Below are positions 2,045 through 25,201 of a DNA stretch of 26,652 bases, piece by piece (positions within the stretch are counted from its first letter, which is position 1; the number at the start of each line of letters is the position of its first letter). Position numbers and translations under genes: made by a program. Source of the DNA: a virus; IMG/VR virus record IMGVR_UViG_3300016457_000538, positions 1 to 26,652 of that record; one strand, 5' to 3'. The notes beneath the pieces were generated by a model that made no database searches, was not told the DNA's origin, and worked only from the letters and a program-made list of their open reading frames with translations.

Positions 2045-2206
2045 CTAACCCTTCTTCCGCCCCATAGCTATTCCTGCCAGCACATATAAGGCTTTCTCGA
2101 TTACTCCACTTGCTTCTGAAGTAAGTGGCGCCAATATAGCTATTATGCAGATTGAAAATACTGCCACAATTACCAAGTCCTTGTCATCATAGTCTGTAAG
2201 TTTCAT
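2045..2206 (-). CDS. Small single-helix membrane protein, end of lysis module (53 aa)
   Basis: An ATG opens a 53-residue frame starting MKLTDYDDKD. A hydrophobic helix follows (LVIVAVFSICIIAILAPL, residues 11-28), then a second weak hydrophobic segment (ALYVLAGIAMG) and a basic tail RKKG. The ATG is one base downstream of the stop of the PLA2-like gene, so it is translationally coupled. Position and topology suggest a lysis accessory or small holin/antiholin, but this is inference. It is the last gene of the phage-like operon. Confidence 0.6.
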   Translation of the reverse strand: MKLTDYDDKDLVIVAVFSICIIAILAPLTSEASGVIEKALYVLAGIAMGRKKG

Positions 2207-2207
2207 G

Positions 2208-2579
2208 TCAATCCTCGTTACCAAAAGAGCTGTCCCCGCCCCTACTAACTGCTATGTAATAAGTTATGGCACGGTACAAAGCTGGTTCATCAAAAAGGTT
2301 ATCCTCTTTCTCTACGATTGAAATCATGTTAAACAGGAATAGCCTGTCAGCAAATATCTTATCTTCCCGGTCTCCCCCTATTTCATACATGAAGTCATGC
2401 ACTTGGCAGGCTTTAACCACATTCTGCCCCCATAAGGTGTCAGGGACTAACCAGTCCCCTATTTTCCCAGGACCTCAACCGTATTCATCAAGGCGCTCCT
2501 GCGGAAGAAGAAAGAAAGAAGGTGGGGCTAATATCTCCCCGAACTGCTCTAACTTAACCAATCTGCTAATGAAATCCAT
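2208..2579 (-). pseudogene. Phospholipase A2-like protein with in-frame TGA (possible selenoprotein or nonsense mutant)
   Basis: The frame from ATG 2579 (AGAGGGAT ribosome site) runs 123 codons to TGA at 2208-2210, interrupted once by TGA at codon 35 (2475-2477). Around it the protein reads DEYG-[TGA]-GPGKIGDWLVPDTLW, followed by KACQVHDFMY with the His61-Asp62 pair. Small PLA2-fold proteins of phages, as I recall them, have NGCGP at this point, so TGA replaces the calcium-loop cysteine. Coding character is equally good on both sides. A restart at GTG 2420 would keep the HD pair but lose the loop and has only a weak ribosome site. A 6-bp GC/AU stem with loop GGUU starts 16 nt after the TGA. 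The alternatives are selenocysteine insertion, a recent nonsense mutation, or a sequence error. Likely role: membrane or lipid hydrolysis during lysis, inferred from the neighbouring endolysin and holin-like genes. Confidence 0.6.
2441..2458 (-). promoter_or_regulatory. SECIS-like hairpin downstream of the in-frame TGA
   Basis: On the minus-strand RNA, AGGGGACU-GGUU-AGUCCCU folds into six Watson-Crick pairs (GGGACU/AGUCCC) plus an outer G-U or bulged A-U pair, with a 4-nt GGUU loop. The loop begins 22 nt after the TGA. Bacterial SECIS elements, as I recall them, need a stem-loop at about this distance with G among the first loop bases. The element is short, and chance cannot be excluded. Confidence 0.35.
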
Positions 2580-2583
2580 TTGT

Positions 2584-2655
2584 TCATCCCTCTAAGAAAT
2601 GCAGGGTGAGCTTAACTTCCTCTCCTTTTATGATAGGGTTGATTCCCCTTCTCAT
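2584..2655 (-). CDS. Small ORF coupled to the PLA2-like gene (23 aa)
   Basis: An ATG follows CAGGAG by 4 nt and opens a 23-residue frame (MRRGINPIIKGEEVKLTL...) ending 4 nt before the PLA2-like start. It overlaps as ATGA the end of a 32-codon frame that starts at 2750 without a good ribosome site. No family is recognised. The Shine-Dalgarno lies in the 3' arm of a 9-bp inverted repeat, so translation may be controlled by that fold. It could be the tail of a degraded gene. Confidence 0.35.
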   Translation of the reverse strand: MRRGINPIIKGEEVKLTLHFLEG

Positions 2656-2782: not shown

Positions 2783-3079
2783 TTATTTCGGGTCATACTC
2801 CACATGAAAAATGTCTCGTTCATCATCATATTCTACTACGTCAAAACCCTTTCCAACAGCATTCTTAATAAACTCTTTAAGCATTCCCTGCCTCTTAAAA
2901 TCGAAGGCTTTCCCGTCGTAATGAAAACTCCCAGGGCTATGATTCCCTTCCATTAGCGAAGTAACAAAGAAATCTAAATTATGACTGAAATATAATTTAG
3001 CTACATGCCCAAAAGCTTTACGGGTATGTTGGCTTAGTCTTCCCTTCACTCCCTGTTTTATCCATACCGTGTTCATCAA
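2783..3079 (-). CDS. M15-type peptidase endolysin
   Basis: The protein probably cleaves peptidoglycan peptide bonds as the phage lysin. The core reads EGNHSPGSFHYDGKAFDF: His53 and Asp60 form the HxxxxxxD zinc-site pattern of M15/DD-peptidase folds (HYDGKAFD), and His92 in DIFHVEYD would be the third ligand. At 98 residues it is a minimal catalytic domain with no cell-wall binding domain and no signal peptide, so it would need the holin-like neighbour for release. The N-terminus overlaps the upstream gene by 62 nt. I keep the ATG at 3079 because VWIKQGVKGRLSQHTRKAFG reads as a continuous part of the domain. Confidence 0.8.
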   Translation of the reverse strand: MMNTVWIKQGVKGRLSQHTRKAFGHVAKLYFSHNLDFFVTSLMEGNHSPGSFHYDGKAFDFKRQGMLKEFIKNAVGKGFDVVEYDDERDIFHVEYDPK

Positions 3080-3224
3080 GTAGTTCCTCCGAATAGGCTG
3101 TAACGGCTGTCTCTATCAATCTAAGGTATTGCCTGACCTCCCTCATGCAACCCTCTATTGCGGTCGTTGCGTTTCTAACAGCATGCCATAGATACTTCAA
3201 ATCCTTCAATTCCTGCTCTGTCAT
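3018..3224 (-). CDS. Helical lysis-module protein of unknown function (68 aa)
   Basis: The frame begins MTEQELKDLKYLWHAVRNAT and is predicted almost entirely helical. Its ATG overlaps the stop of the holin-like gene (ATGA), and its end overlaps the endolysin gene by 62 nt. There is no signal peptide or membrane segment. The place between a holin-like gene and an endolysin suggests a spanin-like or lysis-timing role, but no lipobox or anchor is present. Function unassigned. Confidence 0.6.
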   Translation of the reverse strand: MTEQELKDLKYLWHAVRNATTAIEGCMREVRQYLRLIETAVTAYSEELLDEHGMDKTGSEGKTKPTYP

Positions 3225-3538
3225 TCCGGCACCTCAGCATTTACGCTCCTGGCGATATTAATCATCAGCTTCCGTTGATAAACTTGTTCCACTTTGACAT
3301 CAGCTAATTTCTCGGCAAGATTATTAGATATAACCTCACACATTTCCTTGTCTGTCTTCTTATCCCATAACTCCGAAATGGCTTCTTTGCTTTCGTCGCT
3401 TGACAGCTTAGTCCTGCTGTTACCGTTCTTTTTTGAGTTGGGCAACAAAAACCTTTTAATCCCCATAGCACCACCTCCAATAACTACAAGCGCTCCTATC
3501 CCGAAATTGACTATCTCCGCTGTTGTCATAGATTCCAT
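3221..3538 (-). CDS. Holin-like single-span membrane protein (105 aa)
   Basis: Residues 8-30 (EIVNFGIGALVVIGGGAMGI) form one transmembrane helix, followed by a basic KRFLLPNSKKNGNSR segment and a charged helical cytoplasmic domain. This N-out, single-span layout with a long soluble tail is common in phage proteins annotated as holins or lysis accessory proteins. A TTGGAG site lies 8 nt before the ATG. The stop overlaps the next start as ATGA. Holin identity rests on topology and place beside the endolysin. Confidence 0.6.
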   Translation of the reverse strand: MESMTTAEIVNFGIGALVVIGGGAMGIKRFLLPNSKKNGNSRTKLSSDESKEAISELWDKKTDKEMCEVISNNLAEKLADVKVEQVYQRKLMINIARSVNAEVPE

Positions 3539-15884: not shown

Positions 15885-16291
15885 CCTTCGATCCACCCGT
15901 TAAGAATATGTTCGTGTTTCCACCTGCCAGGATCCGCGGGAATCAACCCTTCCGGTTTCAAGATAACATGCGACCGGAAGATCCTCGGGGCCCGGAAGTA
16001 CCGGAAGCCCTTCTCTGCCTCGGGATCCCGCACCCGCTTATGTAAAACAAAGCAATCAATCTGCTCATTATTAAGCATGGTTGGAAGAGCCTTAGCCAGA
16101 TCCCGGTTTATTGCTTCATTGTCATACAGAAATGCGAACCATGAAGCATAATGCGTTCCCACTAAGTAAAGCTGTGAAGCTCGGATTTGTGTCACCTGGA
16201 CTGGTACAGTGTTGACCGAGGCCGCGGCACGTTTTGCGCCGGCAGGTTCACCGTCTCCAGATGCGGGCAATATGTAAAGATGAAGTTTCAT
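15881..16291 (-). CDS. Hypothetical protein between the modification island and the neck genes (136 aa)
   Basis: The protein has a beta-type N-terminus (MKLHLYILPASGDGEPAG), an Ala-rich basic turn, then mixed alpha/beta sequence with DCFVLHKRVRDPEAEKGF. No catalytic motif is recognised. Its ATG overlaps the methyltransferase stop as TAATG, and its TGA overlaps the gp10-like start. It could be the last modification gene or the first of the neck genes. Function open. Confidence 0.6.
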   Translation of the reverse strand: MKLHLYILPASGDGEPAGAKRAAASVNTVPVQVTQIRASQLYLVGTHYASWFAFLYDNEAINRDLAKALPTMLNNEQIDCFVLHKRVRDPEAEKGFRYFRAPRIFRSHVILKPEGLIPADPGRWKHEHILNGWIEG

Positions 16292-16923
16292 TAGTTTTTT
16301 ATTAATATAAAAAATCCATGCGCTGTCGGATAATCTGGAAAGTAATTATCCTTGATCCCTGGAATCCGAAAATCAAATCCCTCCTGGGCCCACCCACATC
16401 GAGAGAAGAATCTTGTCCACCATTCCTCGGGCATGCAGGTTACATGGGTCGCATCTTTATTGTTTGCAGGTGCTCTAAATTTCCCATCTTCTCCCAAAGG
16501 GATAACTGCAAAAAGTACCTGCCCTGGGAGCTTTTTCTCTAAGATTACTGAAAGATCGTCAGCGTAAATATGTTCAAAAACATCTTTCGCAATAGTATAA
16601 TCAAACCTTGGAGGAAAGATGCTGTATCCCCCATGAGGCTTGCAAAAGTCAGCGATTTGAGGATCTGCGTTTTCCAAAGCATATTGACTGATATCAATCC
16701 CGAAAGCCTGCCGGTAAAGCAATCTGAATGCCTTGACTAAATATCCTTTGGCGCACCCAAAGTCTAAAATATTTGCATGCCTTTGGATTTTCAAATGATC
16801 AATTATTGTCATGGCCATGGGAATCGTTAGCTCCGGGATCCACCGGTAATTTTCGTAACAACTTTTCCCTGTGATGGGGCCACGCTCATAGTAATCCGCA
16901 TCGTAAATTTCAGTATCTATCAT
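16291..16923 (-). CDS. Class I SAM-dependent methyltransferase (210 aa)
   Basis: Motif I is ILDFGCAKGYLVKAF (residues 52-66), followed by FGIDIS (motif II acidic residue) and the catalytic-region DYTIAKDVFEHI. This is the Methyltransf_11/23 type, acting on small molecules, sugars or peptides rather than a recognisable DNA or rRNA methylase. The start overlaps the radical SAM gene by 14 nt. Standing after two radical SAM genes and two glycosyltransferase genes, it probably finishes a glycan or peptide modification; the substrate is unknown. Confidence 0.8.
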   Translation of the reverse strand: MIDTEIYDADYYERGPITGKSCYENYRWIPELTIPMAMTIIDHLKIQRHANILDFGCAKGYLVKAFRLLYRQAFGIDISQYALENADPQIADFCKPHGGYSIFPPRFDYTIAKDVFEHIYADDLSVILEKKLPGQVLFAVIPLGEDGKFRAPANNKDATHVTCMPEEWWTRFFSRCGWAQEGFDFRIPGIKDNYFPDYPTAHGFFILIKN

Positions 16924-17725
16924 TCTTCAGGCACCTTCGGCACAGGCTATGATAATATTCTTTACGTGCCAGTTCGGAATAAAACTGTTTCCGCATTTCA
17001 AGGATATCCTCACGGGCATTGTTCAAGATGTTCCCGAAAATGACCTCCTCTTCCAGATCCATGCAGCATGGAATAACATTGCCGGTCGAACCGATAAACA
17101 GGTGCTCTCCATCACCGTATGGACAGGCATCGAAAGAAACAAGGTCCCCTACGTCTATTCGGCCGCACCATGGGTTAATGTGCTCATTTACATAAACAGC
17201 TTTCAAGCTGGGGTGCGTTTTTCGCAGCTCGTCCCATCCCTTCTTCCACTCAGATAGTCTCTGCCGGTCATTCTCGCGGACGATATGGGTCGTTACGACA
17301 AAATCGATATTGCTGCCAGCCCTCAGAAGCATCTTCCTGATCTCTTCGGTTTTCTGCTCGTAATCGTTCCTGGAACCGTCAGCGTTTTCAAAATGGAACG
17401 AAACTAATATGGCACATTGGTTCAGCAGGCTGCCGAACAGGTCAACAACGTCCTGGGTCAAAAAGATACCATTGGTATAAAGATCCAGCTTCGCAGATGA
17501 CACTCGAGATATCGCCCGGACAATTTCTTTGAAATTCGGATGTAACAACGGCTCCCCGTCCTTGTGCAGGATAATGGTCCCGAAGTCCATCTTCTCAATG
17601 TACTCTGTTTTAATTGCCTCAAAGACCTTCATGGACATATGCTCACGTTTCCTCTGCATAAGTCTGTTGGGACACTCGACACATCTTAAATTGCAATAAT
17701 TCGTTAATTCCATTTGCAGGTTCAT
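16910..17725 (-). CDS. Radical SAM/SPASM protein (271 aa)
   Basis: The CX3CX2C [4Fe-4S] motif is CNLRCVEC (residues 11-18), followed by a GEP motif in HKDGEPLLHP. The C-terminus has SPASM-type cysteines: FDACPYGDG, then GNVIPCCMDLEEEVIFGNI and CRRCL. Such enzymes often modify peptides or activate sugars and amino acids by radical chemistry. The start codon overlaps the stop of the frame upstream (ATGA). It is one of two radical SAM genes in the island, separated by a TnpB remnant. Confidence 0.88.
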   Translation of the reverse strand: MNLQMELTNYCNLRCVECPNRLMQRKREHMSMKVFEAIKTEYIEKMDFGTIILHKDGEPLLHPNFKEIVRAISRVSSAKLDLYTNGIFLTQDVVDLFGSLLNQCAILVSFHFENADGSRNDYEQKTEEIRKMLLRAGSNIDFVVTTHIVRENDRQRLSEWKKGWDELRKTHPSLKAVYVNEHINPWCGRIDVGDLVSFDACPYGDGEHLFIGSTGNVIPCCMDLEEEVIFGNILNNAREDILEMRKQFYSELARKEYYHSLCRRCLKNDRY

Positions 17726-17901
17726 TTTTTGTCCTCCGCCTGAATTGGGGTCGCATTGTTTATGCCTAAAAGCTTCATCGCTTTTCCCCTCTGTCTCGCC
17801 GCTATGGCATCATTACTAATCCCTGGCAAGAAAGCCCACGTACTTCAGTCGTGGAATGCTGATGTAAATGCTGCTATCAATATCGCAATTGGCTTGCTCA
17901 T
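17722..17901 (-). other. Open frame interrupted by TGA between the two radical SAM genes
   Basis: A 60-codon frame runs from ATG 17901, which overlaps the upstream stop as ATGA, to TGA 17722-17724, which overlaps the next start as ATGA. It is broken once by TGA at codon 19. The downstream part (LPGISNDAIAARQRGKAMKL...) has good coding character. The first part lies antisense to a TnpB-like segment and may not be genuine coding. I infer a small operon gene whose 5' end was replaced or disrupted; recoding of the TGA is a less likely option. Confidence 0.35.
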
Positions 17902-17905
17902 ATAA
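17824..17905 (+). mobile_element. IS200/IS605-family TnpB C-terminal remnant
   Basis: On the plus strand, GKKAHVLQSWNADVNAAINI followed by AIGLLI and TAA reads as the end of a TnpB (OrfB). NADVNAAINI is the RuvC-III motif with its catalytic Asp. Only about 25 codons remain; sequence upstream (17762 on, MPKSFIAFPLCL...) does not continue TnpB. It is antisense to the phage operon and is presumably debris of a past insertion. The CCACG...CGTGG inverted repeat lies within it. Confidence 0.5.
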
Positions 17906-18839
17906 AATCCTCCATCCCCGAGGGGTTAAGGATATTGCCAATCATGGCGTTCTGGGCCGAAAACACACAATGATTGCAATTCTCAGTCGGGAACGATTTG
18001 ATATCCTCATCATAAAGAGCGGGCAGCTCTTCCATTTTCACCCAACGATATTTTTCATGAAAGCTCCTGTCTGCGTCTGCATTTAATACTACTGAGGAAC
18101 AGGCGTATGCCCAGCCGTCATGTAATATAAAGGGCTTAAAATAGCCCCAATAACATTGGTCGGGTTTCTGAAAAACCTTGGGCTGATAGAAATAGGGCTT
18201 TCCCCACTCCGCTACGGTTTTTCCAAGCACCTCGTTATTTTCCTTTTGTTCCTCATCTGATGCCTGACAATTGGGAACGATCCGGACATATGCAGGCTTA
18301 TATTTTTCGACATATTCCCTTAGATGAGCAAGTATATTGTCAGTTGTCTTTTCATTCATTACATAGCTGAAACCTAAAGTCCCCGGGATTTCGGGGATAT
18401 CGATATCCTTTACATAGTCTAAGCAATTCATGGAAATCCTGAGCCAGGTCAGACTATCTAAATTTTCCATGGAAAGGCTTTTTTTGAGTTCCACCCCATT
18501 AGTAATCATGCCCTGCTGAAGCCCCTGACTATTGCAGTAGCGGATCGCTTCATTGATAGGACCATATTGTGTAGGATCCCCGCCACCCGTCCATTCTACG
18601 GTCTTGGCACCACGCCCCCGGAGTTGATGAATACATCCCAGAAGGGCCTCAAGATCCAGGGCCTCGTGTTTATCGCGGTTTACGTTGCTGCAAAACACGC
18701 AATTAAGGTTACATTTTGATGTCGGGGCAATTTGTATGGAAATGGGCGTTGCCTCCTGAAAATTTATCAACCTTTGTATTACCTCGGGATGATGTAGAAG
18801 CTTTATGCCAGTTGATGTAAAGGTTTTAATCTGGCTCAT
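17898..18839 (-). CDS. Radical SAM protein (313 aa)
   Basis: The CX3CX2C motif CNLNCVFC is at residues 43-50, and TVEWTGGGDPTQY supplies the SAM-binding glycine-rich strand. The C-terminal half has cysteines (WAYACSSV, NCNHCVF) that may hold an auxiliary cluster. About 40 N-terminal residues precede the cluster motif. Its ATG overlaps the 25-codon ORF as ATGA. The C-terminus ends in MEDFI, and its TGA lies at the TnpB remnant edge, so the very end may be altered. Substrate unknown. Confidence 0.85.
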   Translation of the reverse strand: MSQIKTFTSTGIKLLHHPEVIQRLINFQEATPISIQIAPTSKCNLNCVFCSNVNRDKHEALDLEALLGCIHQLRGRGAKTVEWTGGGDPTQYGPINEAIRYCNSQGLQQGMITNGVELKKSLSMENLDSLTWLRISMNCLDYVKDIDIPEIPGTLGFSYVMNEKTTDNILAHLREYVEKYKPAYVRIVPNCQASDEEQKENNEVLGKTVAEWGKPYFYQPKVFQKPDQCYWGYFKPFILHDGWAYACSSVVLNADADRSFHEKYRWVKMEELPALYDEDIKSFPTENCNHCVFSAQNAMIGNILNPSGMEDFI

Positions 18840-18913
18840 TGGCCCTCTCCATAAGGTTGAGTATCATATTGTAATAAATCCGAATCAAAGACATTGTAAA
18901 TGGTTTCTATCAC
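18836..18913 (-). CDS. 25-residue ORF coupled between GT2 and radical SAM genes
   Basis: A GTG start overlaps the GT2 stop as GTGA, and the TGA stop overlaps the radical SAM start as ATGA. The frame encodes 25 residues (MIETIYNVFDSDLLQ, then YDTQPYGEGQ), acidic and with three Tyr. This exact fit on both sides argues that it is translated. Candidates are a tiny peptide substrate of the radical SAM enzyme, a coupling peptide, or a relic. No homology is claimed. Confidence 0.5.
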   Translation of the reverse strand: MIETIYNVFDSDLLQYDTQPYGEGQ

Positions 18914-19599
18914 AGGCCATCCTCTTTTAATTTTCTCCGGTAAAAGGCCTCTTTGGGATGCTCAGGATAGGTATGGCCCCATTCATCGTCTTTGGCATGA
19001 AGCATAGCACATAACTTCCCGATAAAGTCGCGCTTACCCGGTTCCACACTTCTATGGAAATGGTGGATCTTCGGGTTTGTAACTTGAGCAAAAACGCCTC
19101 GCGAACCGATAATCTGTTCATGAAGCCTCCGAACATATCGAAGGGGACTATTTATCCGCGTCATTCGAGCTTGATAATCGGGGTACACATGCCAATCCTT
19201 AGCCGCAGAAGTCCTTTCTGTATCCATCCAGTCAATCCGGGGGAAGGCGATTGCATCGAATGTTTCAATCAAATAATCTTTTAAAAACCTCAGATTGTGA
19301 TGATCAGCAGGATCGATCCGTTCATCCCCGTCCAGGAACATCATCCAATGTGCCCCCGGAAAGTGTTTCCGCGTCATTTCCCGGAGGTGTTCCCGGGCAG
19401 GGCCGTAGCCCTCGCTTTGAATAATATTGTCAACGACAACGGTTACTCCATGTCCTTGCAGGGCCTCAATCGTTCCATCCGTGGACCCGCCGTCTACAAC
19501 GAGAATCCCGCCATCCGCTATTGGCATAACAGTTTCAAGCCATCCCTCGATCTGGGGTCGCTCATTGAGCATATTGGAAGCGATGCAAAGTTTTTTCAT
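18910..19599 (-). CDS. Glycosyltransferase family 2 protein (229 aa)
   Basis: This GT-A fold enzyme carries VVDGGSTDGT as the nucleotide-binding strand-loop and FLDGDERI as the DxD metal site. The C-terminal IHHFHRSVEPGKRDF matches GT2 acceptor-side sequences. ATG 19599 has AGGAGG 10 nt upstream; a TTG at 19605 is 4 nt from it and is an alternative. It overlaps the previous gene's end by about 40 nt. It likely adds a sugar in a phage-encoded glycan pathway. Confidence 0.85.
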   Translation of the reverse strand: MKKLCIASNMLNERPQIEGWLETVMPIADGGILVVDGGSTDGTIEALQGHGVTVVVDNIIQSEGYGPAREHLREMTRKHFPGAHWMMFLDGDERIDPADHHNLRFLKDYLIETFDAIAFPRIDWMDTERTSAAKDWHVYPDYQARMTRINSPLRYVRRLHEQIIGSRGVFAQVTNPKIHHFHRSVEPGKRDFIGKLCAMLHAKDDEWGHTYPEHPKEAFYRRKLKEDGL

Positions 19600-21733
19600 G
19601 TTCAAAGTTCCTCCTTATATTTCCGTTGGATTTGATCTGTTTGATCGCCTCCAGGATTGTTTTCGGGTCATGCCGGCCGGTACATGGTGCCGGGCAATCT
19701 CTTACGCTTGCCGAACACGGCCCCAGGCCCTTGCAATATCTGACATAATCAGGGACAAGGCAAATGAGCTCACCTTTCATTTGGTTTGGTCTCACCACCA
19801 TAGCATTGCCGGATCCGAATAAGCAGACTTGCGATATTCCCAAACCCCCTGCCAGGTGGCTCATAAAACTATCAACAGTAATAGCAAGAACGGCTTTATC
19901 CATTATCCAGGCCGTTTCTTTGTAAGAGAATTCCCCCCTCAAGTCCATACCCGCATCAGCAGGATAATCGCTTTTTCCACCAAGCTGTATGGTGAAATAC
20001 CCCATATCTTTGAGCCCGCGGCAGACATCCGCCATATATTTGTATGTCCTGAAATGAGGATCTCCGCCTGTGGTATGGACTATACAGATAGGCATATATT
20101 CATCGTTCCAAAATTCAAGGTATTCATAAAAAGATAATTTTGTATCTGCAACTTTTCTATCAGTATCTACATAATGATAAAAAAAAGGTTCTTCTTGCTG
20201 GATAAAAAAATCATCCGGTTCCACATCCAGGATCTTCCAATAAAAATCAGAGAGGATCGAATTGCAGTTCCTTCCCCAGTGTCCTGGCAGAATACGGTCT
20301 GCGTGAGGGTTTAAGATGATCTCATATTTATTAAACTGCTTTTCATCCCAAGGGATTACCTCATCAATATAGGGATTCCCCTCGACTATTCCCATGTATT
20401 GGGGAGAGGTCATATAGGTCAGATGTTTCCCGGGGAATCTCTCCTTTATCCCCTTAAAACATCGTGTAGTCATGTATACATCCCCTGCAGCGGAATGCTG
20501 GGCAAAAAGAACGGCGGGCATTTTTTTCTTAACAGGCACTGGCTTAAAAGCTTCTTCCAGCAATTCATTAATGTCAGATATACCGGAAAGCCAGTCTTTG
20601 CCCCTAACAATCCCGGAAGCCACCATAAGGTCCTTTTCATCCTCAGGAAGGGCGATCATCCGGACCATGGCCTCGGCAATATCTTCCGGCCGGCAGCATC
20701 CGGTCTCGATCCAGCTATTCCCGTTCTTTCCCGCTAAAGGAAGGAAATCTAAGTTTTTGAGCGGAACAAGCATACCAACATTTTCGACCAGTTCGGTTTG
20801 GGCCGTAGTGTCCGATGCAATTATGGGGGTCCCGCAAAGCATGGCATTCAGAGGGGTCCATGAGAGCCCTTCTTGCATCGAGCAATTGACGAGACAATCA
20901 ATGGCATTGTAGACGTCCACCATGCCCTGTTCCGTGAATGTCCCGCCACAGGTCAAAATATCTCCGGTGCTTAGTCCCATATCATTCAGATACTGAATAA
21001 GATTGAAGTTTCCGTTTTTATGCCCATCCACACGAGTATGAAGGTAAAGCATGCTATCGGGATATTGCTCCTTAACCATCCTGAAGGCTTTAATCAATCG
21101 CTGGGGATCCTTTCGCTTCTGGTTGGGGCCCACAAATCCAAATACAAATTGATCATCTCGGACATTGGGGAACAATCTCTCCCTTATTTTACGCCTTTTG
21201 TCGGCATCATAAGGCCGATACATCTCTGCATAGGCCAGGGGCGGTCGAAAGTATTGGATGTGAGGGACCGCGTCTTTCAGCATTTGCTCTCCATATTTGG
21301 AGTATGCACAGGGGAAATCCATCATATTGATCCAGTCTGCCCAATCCTGCCTGAAATCCTGGAGGTCATACGGAAATAGCCAGATCCACTTGAACCCCTT
21401 TCGTTTTTTTAAATCATAGATGTTTTTAAAAATCGGGAAATATCGCCATAGATCAATCCCCACCATAATTAGCGCATCAAATGTCGCGGTCTGAATTATG
21501 CGCAACAGTTTTTGCTCTCCCCAGGGGTTTCTACCATCAGATGCCGGAATCAGGCGAAATGGGGGAGGGGCAAATATATCGAATCCTGCCCAGGGAGGAA
21601 CTTCACTCGCAGCGAAGCAGGCGATATTGTACCGATCTTCTTTCAGCATATCGAGAACGGCCTGCATCATGTGACCATTTCCTGTCGTTGAAGCTGGATC
21701 CTCTCCGACAAATAGGATTGTTTTTTTGTCCAA
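19562..21733 (-). CDS. Bifunctional glycosyltransferase GT4-GT9 fusion (723 aa)
   Basis: The N-terminal ~390 residues are GT4-like: TILFVGEDPASTTGNGHMMQ, the linker VFGFVGPNQKRKDPQRLIKA, and the donor loop CSMQEGLSWTPLNAMLCGTP. Residues ~405-700 are heptosyltransferase-type (GT9): AVLFAQHSAAGDVYMTTRC, ICIVHTTGGDPHFRTYKY, and AITVDSFMSHLAGGLGISQV followed by CLFGSG. A Cys-rich tail follows (GLGPCSASVRDCPAPC). Such domains normally occur as separate enzymes. The gene is the first of the modification island and probably starts or extends a glycan chain. Confidence 0.85.
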   Translation of the reverse strand: MDKKTILFVGEDPASTTGNGHMMQAVLDMLKEDRYNIACFAASEVPPWAGFDIFAPPPFRLIPASDGRNPWGEQKLLRIIQTATFDALIMVGIDLWRYFPIFKNIYDLKKRKGFKWIWLFPYDLQDFRQDWADWINMMDFPCAYSKYGEQMLKDAVPHIQYFRPPLAYAEMYRPYDADKRRKIRERLFPNVRDDQFVFGFVGPNQKRKDPQRLIKAFRMVKEQYPDSMLYLHTRVDGHKNGNFNLIQYLNDMGLSTGDILTCGGTFTEQGMVDVYNAIDCLVNCSMQEGLSWTPLNAMLCGTPIIASDTTAQTELVENVGMLVPLKNLDFLPLAGKNGNSWIETGCCRPEDIAEAMVRMIALPEDEKDLMVASGIVRGKDWLSGISDINELLEEAFKPVPVKKKMPAVLFAQHSAAGDVYMTTRCFKGIKERFPGKHLTYMTSPQYMGIVEGNPYIDEVIPWDEKQFNKYEIILNPHADRILPGHWGRNCNSILSDFYWKILDVEPDDFFIQQEEPFFYHYVDTDRKVADTKLSFYEYLEFWNDEYMPICIVHTTGGDPHFRTYKYMADVCRGLKDMGYFTIQLGGKSDYPADAGMDLRGEFSYKETAWIMDKAVLAITVDSFMSHLAGGLGISQVCLFGSGNAMVVRPNQMKGELICLVPDYVRYCKGLGPCSASVRDCPAPCTGRHDPKTILEAIKQIKSNGNIRRNFEHEKTLHRFQYAQ

Positions 21734-24029: not shown

Positions 24030-24905
24030 TTAATTGTCTCGGACAAGACGGACATAATATTTTGTGGACTCCTTACCGTAATCGTATACCCTACTGTAGT
24101 TAAAGTGTATGGCGAGTGCCACAAGCGAGTAACCAGGCCTCGAAGATGATGTCCATGTATACTCGGCTGGTGTACTGGGAAAGGCTGTTGTATCAATGCA
24201 GGGGTTGGAACCTATATCGACGAGTTTATTTAATTGACTCCTGTTCGGAATATACCAATCTGTATACCCACCGAGGCTATTTGCATTCGCCTGATCCTTG
24301 AAATTCCAGATTAGGTCATCAACCGTGGCGATAGTAACCGTATCTCCCGCCGCCTCATCGGCTACACCCTCCACGGTGGTAATGGCCCCAGCTGTAATGG
24401 ATGACACAGTATAAGTCCCGTCATTACTCGTTGACCCCGTAACAGTAAATATACGTCCGGCGCATAGGGCAAGCGTCTCAAACTCACTGGCCCCACTTCG
24501 TATCTCACCGGAGGCGTTGTCAAAGCTGATATCGGTCTTGTTTTCTAACGTCCATTGACTCCAGAACAGCTTGCCGTCAGCACCCGGACCTATGTCAGCA
24601 TTAGGTACATACCTCACCCACATGAGGCCTGTTCGCTCGTCTATGACACAGTTGTTGCTCAGCGCATGAGTTTTAGCATTGATTACAATATTCGTGGTCC
24701 CTGAATGCTGTCCAGTAGTCAGTATATTATATGACCGGCTCACGCCTTTTTCCAGGTCCCCGTCATCGCCTGCATTGAAACTCGTTGTCTGACCGGTTTT
24801 CAACGGTTGGCTCGGTAAAGATGCCCCGTAATAACGACTGACATCTGCTCCCATAAAAGTCAGGAAAGCTATAAATAAACTAAGTAATATTAAGTATCTT
24901 TTCAT
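24030..24905 (-). CDS. Exported DUF1566 (Lcl C-terminal) domain protein (291 aa)
   Basis: A Sec signal peptide (MKRYLILLSLFIAFLTFMG) precedes the DUF1566 module. Its marks are VIDERTGLMWVRYVPNADIG, GGYTDWYIPNRSQLNKLVD, and YTWTSSSRP with the terminal YYVRLVRDN. Residues ~125-195 hold an inserted beta domain (FTVTGSTSNDGTYTVSSITA...) like repeats in phage appendage proteins. The domain has a lectin-like fold and is used for surface binding. The ATG overlaps the preceding stop as ATGA. Confidence 0.82.
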   Translation of the reverse strand: MKRYLILLSLFIAFLTFMGADVSRYYGASLPSQPLKTGQTTSFNAGDDGDLEKGVSRSYNILTTGQHSGTTNIVINAKTHALSNNCVIDERTGLMWVRYVPNADIGPGADGKLFWSQWTLENKTDISFDNASGEIRSGASEFETLALCAGRIFTVTGSTSNDGTYTVSSITAGAITTVEGVADEAAGDTVTIATVDDLIWNFKDQANANSLGGYTDWYIPNRSQLNKLVDIGSNPCIDTTAFPSTPAEYTWTSSSRPGYSLVALAIHFNYSRVYDYGKESTKYYVRLVRDN

Positions 24906-25201
24906 AATATATCCTCTTTTCCTGCATCTCCGATAATATCAGCATCGGGCACAGACCTTATCCACATGAGATTGGTGTGCTCATCTATGTCACAAGTATT
25001 AGAAAGAGCATAGGCCCTGCCATTGATTACGATATTTGTTGTGTCTAAATGTTGACCTGTATCATTGTCAAGCGTTTGTTCTGTCATTAACGATAACGTT
25101 TGGTTAAGCATAGATACGCTGCGGCAGGACCCATTCCAGAAAAAGAAAAGAGCAAAAAGTATCGAACATAGAAAACATATCATAGCTAAGAATTCTCTCA
25201 T
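24902..25201 (-). CDS. Truncated exported paralog of the adjacent DUF1566 protein (99 aa)
   Basis: The N-terminal hydrophobic segment (FLAMICFLCSILFALFFFW) looks like a signal or anchor. The rest aligns with the neighbour: TGQHLDTTNIVINGRAYALS vs TGQHSGTTNIVINAKTHALS, and CDIDEHTNLMWIRSVPDADI vs CVIDERTGLMWVRYVPNADI. It stops (KEDIL) where the neighbour's domain continues, so the C-terminal half is missing. I read it as a tandem duplicate that lost its 3' half. Confidence 0.65.
   Translation of the reverse strand: MREFLAMICFLCSILFALFFFWNGSCRSVSMLNQTLSLMTEQTLDNDTGQHLDTTNIVINGRAYALSNTCDIDEHTNLMWIRSVPDADIIGDAGKEDIL

Follow-up and report, generated by a model that had tools for sequence, protein, structure and literature searches.

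A gene on the minus strand of a phage genome very probably encodes a selenoprotein, probably a phospholipase A2 (PLA2)-like lysis enzyme, that would be made with the selenocysteine (Sec) machinery of the host. The gene lies in IMG/VR record IMGVR_UViG_3300016457_000538, of which positions 1 to 26,652 were analysed as one stretch of 26,652 nucleotides (hereafter the window). Computational analysis establishes a recoded UGA in a conserved reading frame, a PLA2 fold, a match to the bacterial SECIS (bSECIS) model, and the setting of the gene.

The coding sequence occupies positions 2208..2579 (minus strand). Read from 2579 to 2208, its translation starts with MDFISR, continues through the TGA-interrupted segment and ACQVHDFMYEIGG, and ends in GNED before a terminal stop that is also TGA. 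The 123-codon frame contains a single in-frame TGA, at codon 35 (2475..2477, minus strand), in the context DEYG-TGA-GPGKIGDWLVP; it falls at the Ca-loop position, in an alignment column held by Cys or UGA, and on the strength of the sequence and its homologues we read it as Sec, giving a predicted 123-residue product with Sec at position 35. A preliminary description of this DNA had reported a TGA at codon 35 inside a coding frame, a good ribosome site at the true start and an intact HD pair downstream, and had pointed out that TGA is also the real stop of this and other genes. These observations are borne out: a Shine-Dalgarno-like AGAGGG (2588..2593, minus strand) stands 5′ of the ATG at 2579, the His61-Asp62 pair (2394..2399, minus strand) is invariant in the family alignment, and TGA ends other open reading frames (ORFs) of the window as well. 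His61 and Asp62, the predicted catalytic and Ca-ligand pair of a CxxHD motif, were assigned from the sequence and from alignment to the solved PLA2 structures 1faz and 4aup.

To describe the homologues, we call window codon 35 site 1 and its partner Cys, window C58 (codon 2406..2408, minus strand), site 2, and we give the state of each in that order as C (Cys codon) or U (TGA). Among 95 distinct homologues, a count that leaves out the non-family matches L137 and L142, 83 are CC, 4 UC, 7 UU and 1 CU; in the UU and CU sequences, the Cys58 codon is thus replaced by TGA. The homologue alignment proposed in the preliminary description placed Cys or TGA at the codon-35 position, and the Cys anticipated there is invariant in the 84 sampled homologues without TGA at site 1. 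In 80 viral loci from a family-alignment search, picked through the CxxHD motif and hence blind to codon 35, site 1 was always Cys or TGA, never another residue and never TAA or TAG; likewise, no other residue and no TAA or TAG occurred at site 2 in 31 loci picked blind to that site. Scans of the collections for homologues interrupted by a stop codon relied solely on TGA patterns. The first strict pattern returned, besides the window virus, only Cys homologues with their TGA out of frame; a looser search, the one that gave the 80 CxxHD-selected loci, exposed L018, a second, divergent TGA case, and later patterns brought in the remaining TGA members.

The IMG/VR contigs L001 and L002 also have this TGA; being 100% identical to the window over 7,579 bp, they are not independent of it. 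Independent support comes from L103, L018/L118, L102 and a two-TGA subfamily. L103, the closest relative (63% protein identity), was found with TGA-specific patterns, as were L102 and the two-TGA subfamily; using the first Cys as the search key brought up L143, the CU sequence. The TGA-bearing homologues come from more than 10 source metagenomes, and the named phages and plasmids hold Cys versions only. A tblastn search identified Cys homologues in Vibrio phage 1.097.O, where the protein is annotated with a phospholipase A2 domain, and in a Thiohalocapsa phage, and in both the residue aligned to codon 35 is Cys. Two megaplasmids of Vibrio sp. THAF191d and THAF64 (L198, L199) also carry the Cys form, at a place for which the collection searched lists no gene.

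Downstream of the window TGA, RNAfold predicts a SECIS-like hairpin, GGGGACU-GGUU-AGUCCCU (2442..2459, minus strand; loop 2449-2452), with G in the first two loop positions; its stem begins 16 nt and its loop 22 nt past the TGA. The published bSECIS model specifies a loop of 3-9 nt, a stem of 4-16 bp, G in the first two loop nucleotides, a spacing of 16-37 nt from the UGA and a minimum free energy (MFE) of at most -7.5 (PMC13188914). The hairpin with its GGUU loop had been described as compatible with a bacterial SECIS, and scoring it, as was suggested at the time, showed that the model fits at the window TGA and at every other TGA of the family: 19 of 19 TGA codons conform to the published geometry when the MFE limit of -7.5 is applied to a 50-nt fragment. 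When ≤ -7.5 kcal/mol is demanded of the hairpin alone, 8 of 11 pass at site 1 and 3 of 8 at site 2. By itself, the window hairpin has an unexceptional stability (z -0.76 relative to dinucleotide shuffles), and comparison with synonymous recodings gives p 0.023. An Rfam search over the window region gave no match to a SECIS family.

UGA codons were also compared with Cys codons. With cut-offs chosen after the TGA sites were seen (hairpin ≤ -5 kcal/mol, spacing 20-28), hairpins follow 11/11 UGA against 6/84 Cys codons at site 1 (Fisher 2e-10) and, at site 2, 8/8 UGA but 0/87 Cys codons (Fisher 8e-12), p-values that are indicative, the rows being related and their independence overstated. Under the published geometry combined with -5 kcal/mol, the site 1 figures are 11/11 TGA and 15/84 Cys. 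Mean z against synonymous recodings is -2.3 at site 1 and -2.5 at site 2 for TGA, compared with -0.4 and -0.1 for Cys. The encoded GDW.VP peptide itself predisposes site 1 to form a hairpin, whereas site 2 is without such a peptide; there the hairpin sequence varies between lineages while its position and loop G stay constant. A few Cys homologues (L022, L024, L046 and L143) bear the site 1 hairpin too, and in L022, L024 and L143 it is strong, as if Sec had lately been lost.

On a 95-row tree, the site 1 state changed at least 8 times and the site 2 state at least 4 times, although the tree is built on few alignment columns, has many weak forks and does not distinguish gain from loss. The pair L104 (UU) and L143 (CU) shares 87% DNA identity and has TGA and TGC, respectively, at site 1; L143 keeps its site 1 hairpin, which is what a recent change from Sec to Cys would leave. 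Downstream of the TGA codon or codons, dN/dS is 0.028 for L108/L116 and 0.126 for L104/L143, and between the two TGA codons it is 0.095 and 0, respectively. Overall, values past the TGA lie at about 0.03-0.2 where measurable, indicating purifying selection, and translation must therefore run past both TGA codons. The relaxed selection after the stop that marks a pseudogene was not seen. The window and L103 share 58% amino acid identity downstream of the TGA, with dS saturated.

The family profile matches solved PLA2 structures (1faz, E 3e-7; also 4aup, 7ygk and 8k1w). An AlphaFold2 model (pLDDT 89) was compared with known structures using Foldseek, which returned the PLA2s of Tuber borchii and Streptomyces and a Vibrio phage PLA2 model (4aup at probability 1.00 and TM 0.62; best E 5e-3). 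The protein is accordingly modelled with a secreted-PLA2 fold, and no signal peptide was seen in the window protein. Against Pfam PF09056, the window protein had no match, while 14 of 72 members matched at E<0.01 (best 5.6e-5). Both Cys/Sec positions and the HD pair are invariant in the family, in keeping with a CxxHD catalytic pair, and homology suggests that the product would have PLA2 enzymatic activity. In 1faz, the Cys of CxxHD is bonded to a Ca-loop Cys. By analogy, sites 1 and 2 would correspond to the single conserved Ca-loop cystine, with the reservation that the 1faz profile match starts only after site 1. The window protein has one Sec (UGA) and one Cys at these columns, and the UU relatives have UGA at both; Sec35 and Cys58 should form a selenenylsulfide in the former, and the pair should form a diselenide in the latter. 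PHROG 1158, labelled tail assembly chaperone, is matched by 44 of 72 members; we did not adopt this label, since among solved structures the family profile matches PLA2. The Thiohalocapsa phage member (OP947165.1) is annotated as a DNA binding protein. Both names look like misannotations of a PLA2-fold family.

The gene setting points to lysis. One nucleotide past the PLA2 stop, a gene at 2045..2206 (minus strand) encodes a small one-TM protein (MKLTDYDDK...) that may be a lysis or holin-type partner. Upstream lie a candidate endolysin (2783..3079, minus strand), with a weak Hedgehog/M15 peptidase fold match (PF01085, E 0.005, below cut-off), and a small protein with an N-terminal TM segment (3221..3538, minus strand) that is holin-like by inspection alone, without a family match. 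In L175, the gene at the position equivalent to window 2783..3079 has a better M15 match (Peptidase_M15_3). Elsewhere the neighbours of the PLA2 gene include NlpC/P60 proteins in L018 and L102, a phage lysozyme in L092, and small holin-like proteins, so that endolysin or holin adjacency is seen in L018, L102, L175 and L092, with weak matches in the window itself. The window and L103 phages resemble each other detectably only in the PLA2-like gene and a tail-type gene; the Sec gene has therefore been kept in different phages. In Vibrio phage 1.097.O, the homologue sits between terminase and head genes. Because this copy adjoins terminase, the lysis role suggested by homology and gene position is likely but not certain.

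Several other features of these genomes were recorded. Caspase-domain (Peptidase_C14) proteins are encoded upstream of UU and CU PLA2 genes (L092:9923-10765 and L116:879-1736; Pfam matches at 4e-28 and 1e-24, respectively; L108 and L143 by inspection). In the window, translations read at 16291-21733 include radical-SAM-like, methyltransferase-like and glycosyltransferase-like genes beside tail genes, and the adjacent ORFs 24030-24905 and 24902-25201 share the repeat NIVIN..ALSN.C.IDE.T.LMW, the second being apparently a truncated copy.

Ordinary ORFs terminate at TGA both in the window and in all other records counted, and a change of genetic code making TGA a sense codon was rejected on this ground. 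The phage records yielded no tRNA(Sec), suppressor tRNA or other TGA-reading tRNA; their sole tRNA is a tRNA-His, and a phage suppressor tRNA was rejected on this basis. Since the phage records lack a tRNA(Sec), the Sec machinery must come from the host. A genome-wide scan of bacterial genomes for the Cys/TGA pattern brought up a single, unrelated Cys protein and hence neither a prophage nor a host, and 396 genomes from the phylum of the organism with that protein yielded only Cys homologues, any TGA being at the normal gene end.

The preliminary description had named a nonsense mutation as the plain alternative to a selenoprotein or a Cys/UGA switch. On that account, or if the TGA were a sequencing error, the gene would be a decayed PLA2-like gene ending at codon 34, and both the use of TGA as a normal stop in this phage and the unremarkable stability of the window hairpin alone would fit. 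The account fails, and we consider it almost certainly wrong: the same codon is TGA in independent lineages, selection downstream is purifying, SECIS-like hairpins accompany 19/19 TGA sites, and TGA also replaces the partner Cys, in seven distinct UU sequences and in one that is CU. The selenoprotein or switch reading, by contrast, gains support from the Cys-or-TGA homologues and the bSECIS fit. The double-TGA subfamily and the lysis-gene setting go beyond what that description had covered. It is a separate matter whether the UGA might be decoded as something other than Sec, by a near-cognate or suppressor tRNA (Trp or Cys) or by a tRNA that recodes UGA as Cys. Recoded tRNA(Sec) variants carrying Cys exist, SelB-dependent Cys insertion is compatible with the data, and the inserted residue is here a prediction from sequence. 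Such decoding is nevertheless very unlikely, given that TGA also terminates genes, that the codon exchanges with Cys only, that the phage records hold no suppressor tRNA, and that SECIS-like hairpins are far commoner after UGA than after Cys codons.

Two further alternatives accept Sec insertion and concern its purpose. The UGA could act as a selenium-gated stop through which PLA2 synthesis, and with it lysis, would depend on the host's supply of selenium or Sec-tRNA, Sec chemistry being secondary. Its position near the start of the gene (codon 35 of 123) and the lysis setting suit such a gate; a single UGA would suffice for it, however, while the second sits exactly at the bond partner, and the occurrence of both CU and UC forms points to bond chemistry, so that we regard gating as improbable. 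Alternatively, the Sec protein may serve outside lysis, as a virion or injected phospholipase or as a non-enzymatic PLA2-fold protein. The place of the Vibrio phage 1.097.O homologue and the PHROG 1158 label speak for this, whereas the endolysin and holin-like neighbours in several otherwise different phages, together with the retained HD pair and Ca loop, speak against it, leaving it unlikely though deserving of some weight.

Under the selenoprotein reading, a host SelB-Sec-tRNA(Sec) complex would decode UGA codon 35 as Sec, directed by the SECIS hairpin 16 nt downstream, which lies within the codons of the conserved GDWLVP motif. The product would be a small, signal-less PLA2-fold enzyme made late, alongside the endolysin and holin-like proteins; it would accumulate, be released at lysis and probably attack membrane phospholipids. 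A selenenylsulfide or diselenide could arise and survive in a cell that is reducing or rich in thiols, in which a disulfide would not. Redox potentials of -381 mV for a diselenide and -180 mV for a disulfide, and formation in the E. coli cytoplasm, have been reported (PMC8923235). Stability of the bond in reducing surroundings may be the selective reason for Sec. More tentatively, and at somewhat less than even odds in our judgement, phages of selenium-using hosts may have repeatedly converted the cystine of a lysis PLA2 to a selenenylsulfide or diselenide, allowing folding in a reducing or sulfidic cell and making lysis selenium-dependent.

The family shares with bacterial bSECIS selenoproteins a UGA at a conserved Cys position flanked by conserved coding sequence, a hairpin 16-37 nt downstream with a loop G, Cys homologues, and multiple UGA homologues. 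It differs in being phage-borne and in placing Sec not in a redox active site but in the Ca-loop cystine, expected to be structural, of a hydrolase fold. With the PLA2s of Streptomyces violaceoruber (1faz) and Tuber borchii (4aup) and with PF09056 it shares the predicted fold, the CxxHD helix and the Ca-loop Cys; unlike 1faz and 4aup, the window protein is phage-borne, shows no signal peptide and has Sec in place of Cys. The proteins of Vibrio phage 1.097.O and Thiohalocapsa phage LS06-2018-MD03 are homologous over most of their length, including both conserved positions, but have Cys at both sites and no UGA. SelL contains two Sec in a UxxU redox motif. Like SelL, the UU relatives have two Sec and a possible diselenide, but theirs lie 23-24 residues apart in a PLA2-like scaffold; a title cited in PMC2398784 describes SelL as a selenoprotein family with a diselenide bond. 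Genes for tRNA(Sec) have been reported in Basilisk-like phages (PMC6145125) and huge phages (PMC10747093), earlier hints that phages engage Sec decoding, as here; those reports concern tRNA genes and no selenoprotein, whereas here phage selenoprotein genes occur without a phage tRNA(Sec). A 2026 review of prokaryotic selenoproteomes makes no mention of phage, virus, phospholipase or diselenide, and the open-access literature searched contained no report of a phage or PLA2 selenoprotein, though an unseen report is possible; the family is apparently undescribed.

When engineered phage T7 was offered Sec in the hope of diselenides, none arose (PMC8923235); the phages of this family, unlike engineered T7, appear to have evolved Sec pairs repeatedly. 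If real, these genes would extend Sec coding to phage lysis genes, would provide a hydrolase-fold selenoprotein with Sec in place of an expected structural cystine, and would represent natural proteins whose two Sec lie outside a UxxU redox motif. Because standard gene callers truncate such genes, more of them may be hidden.
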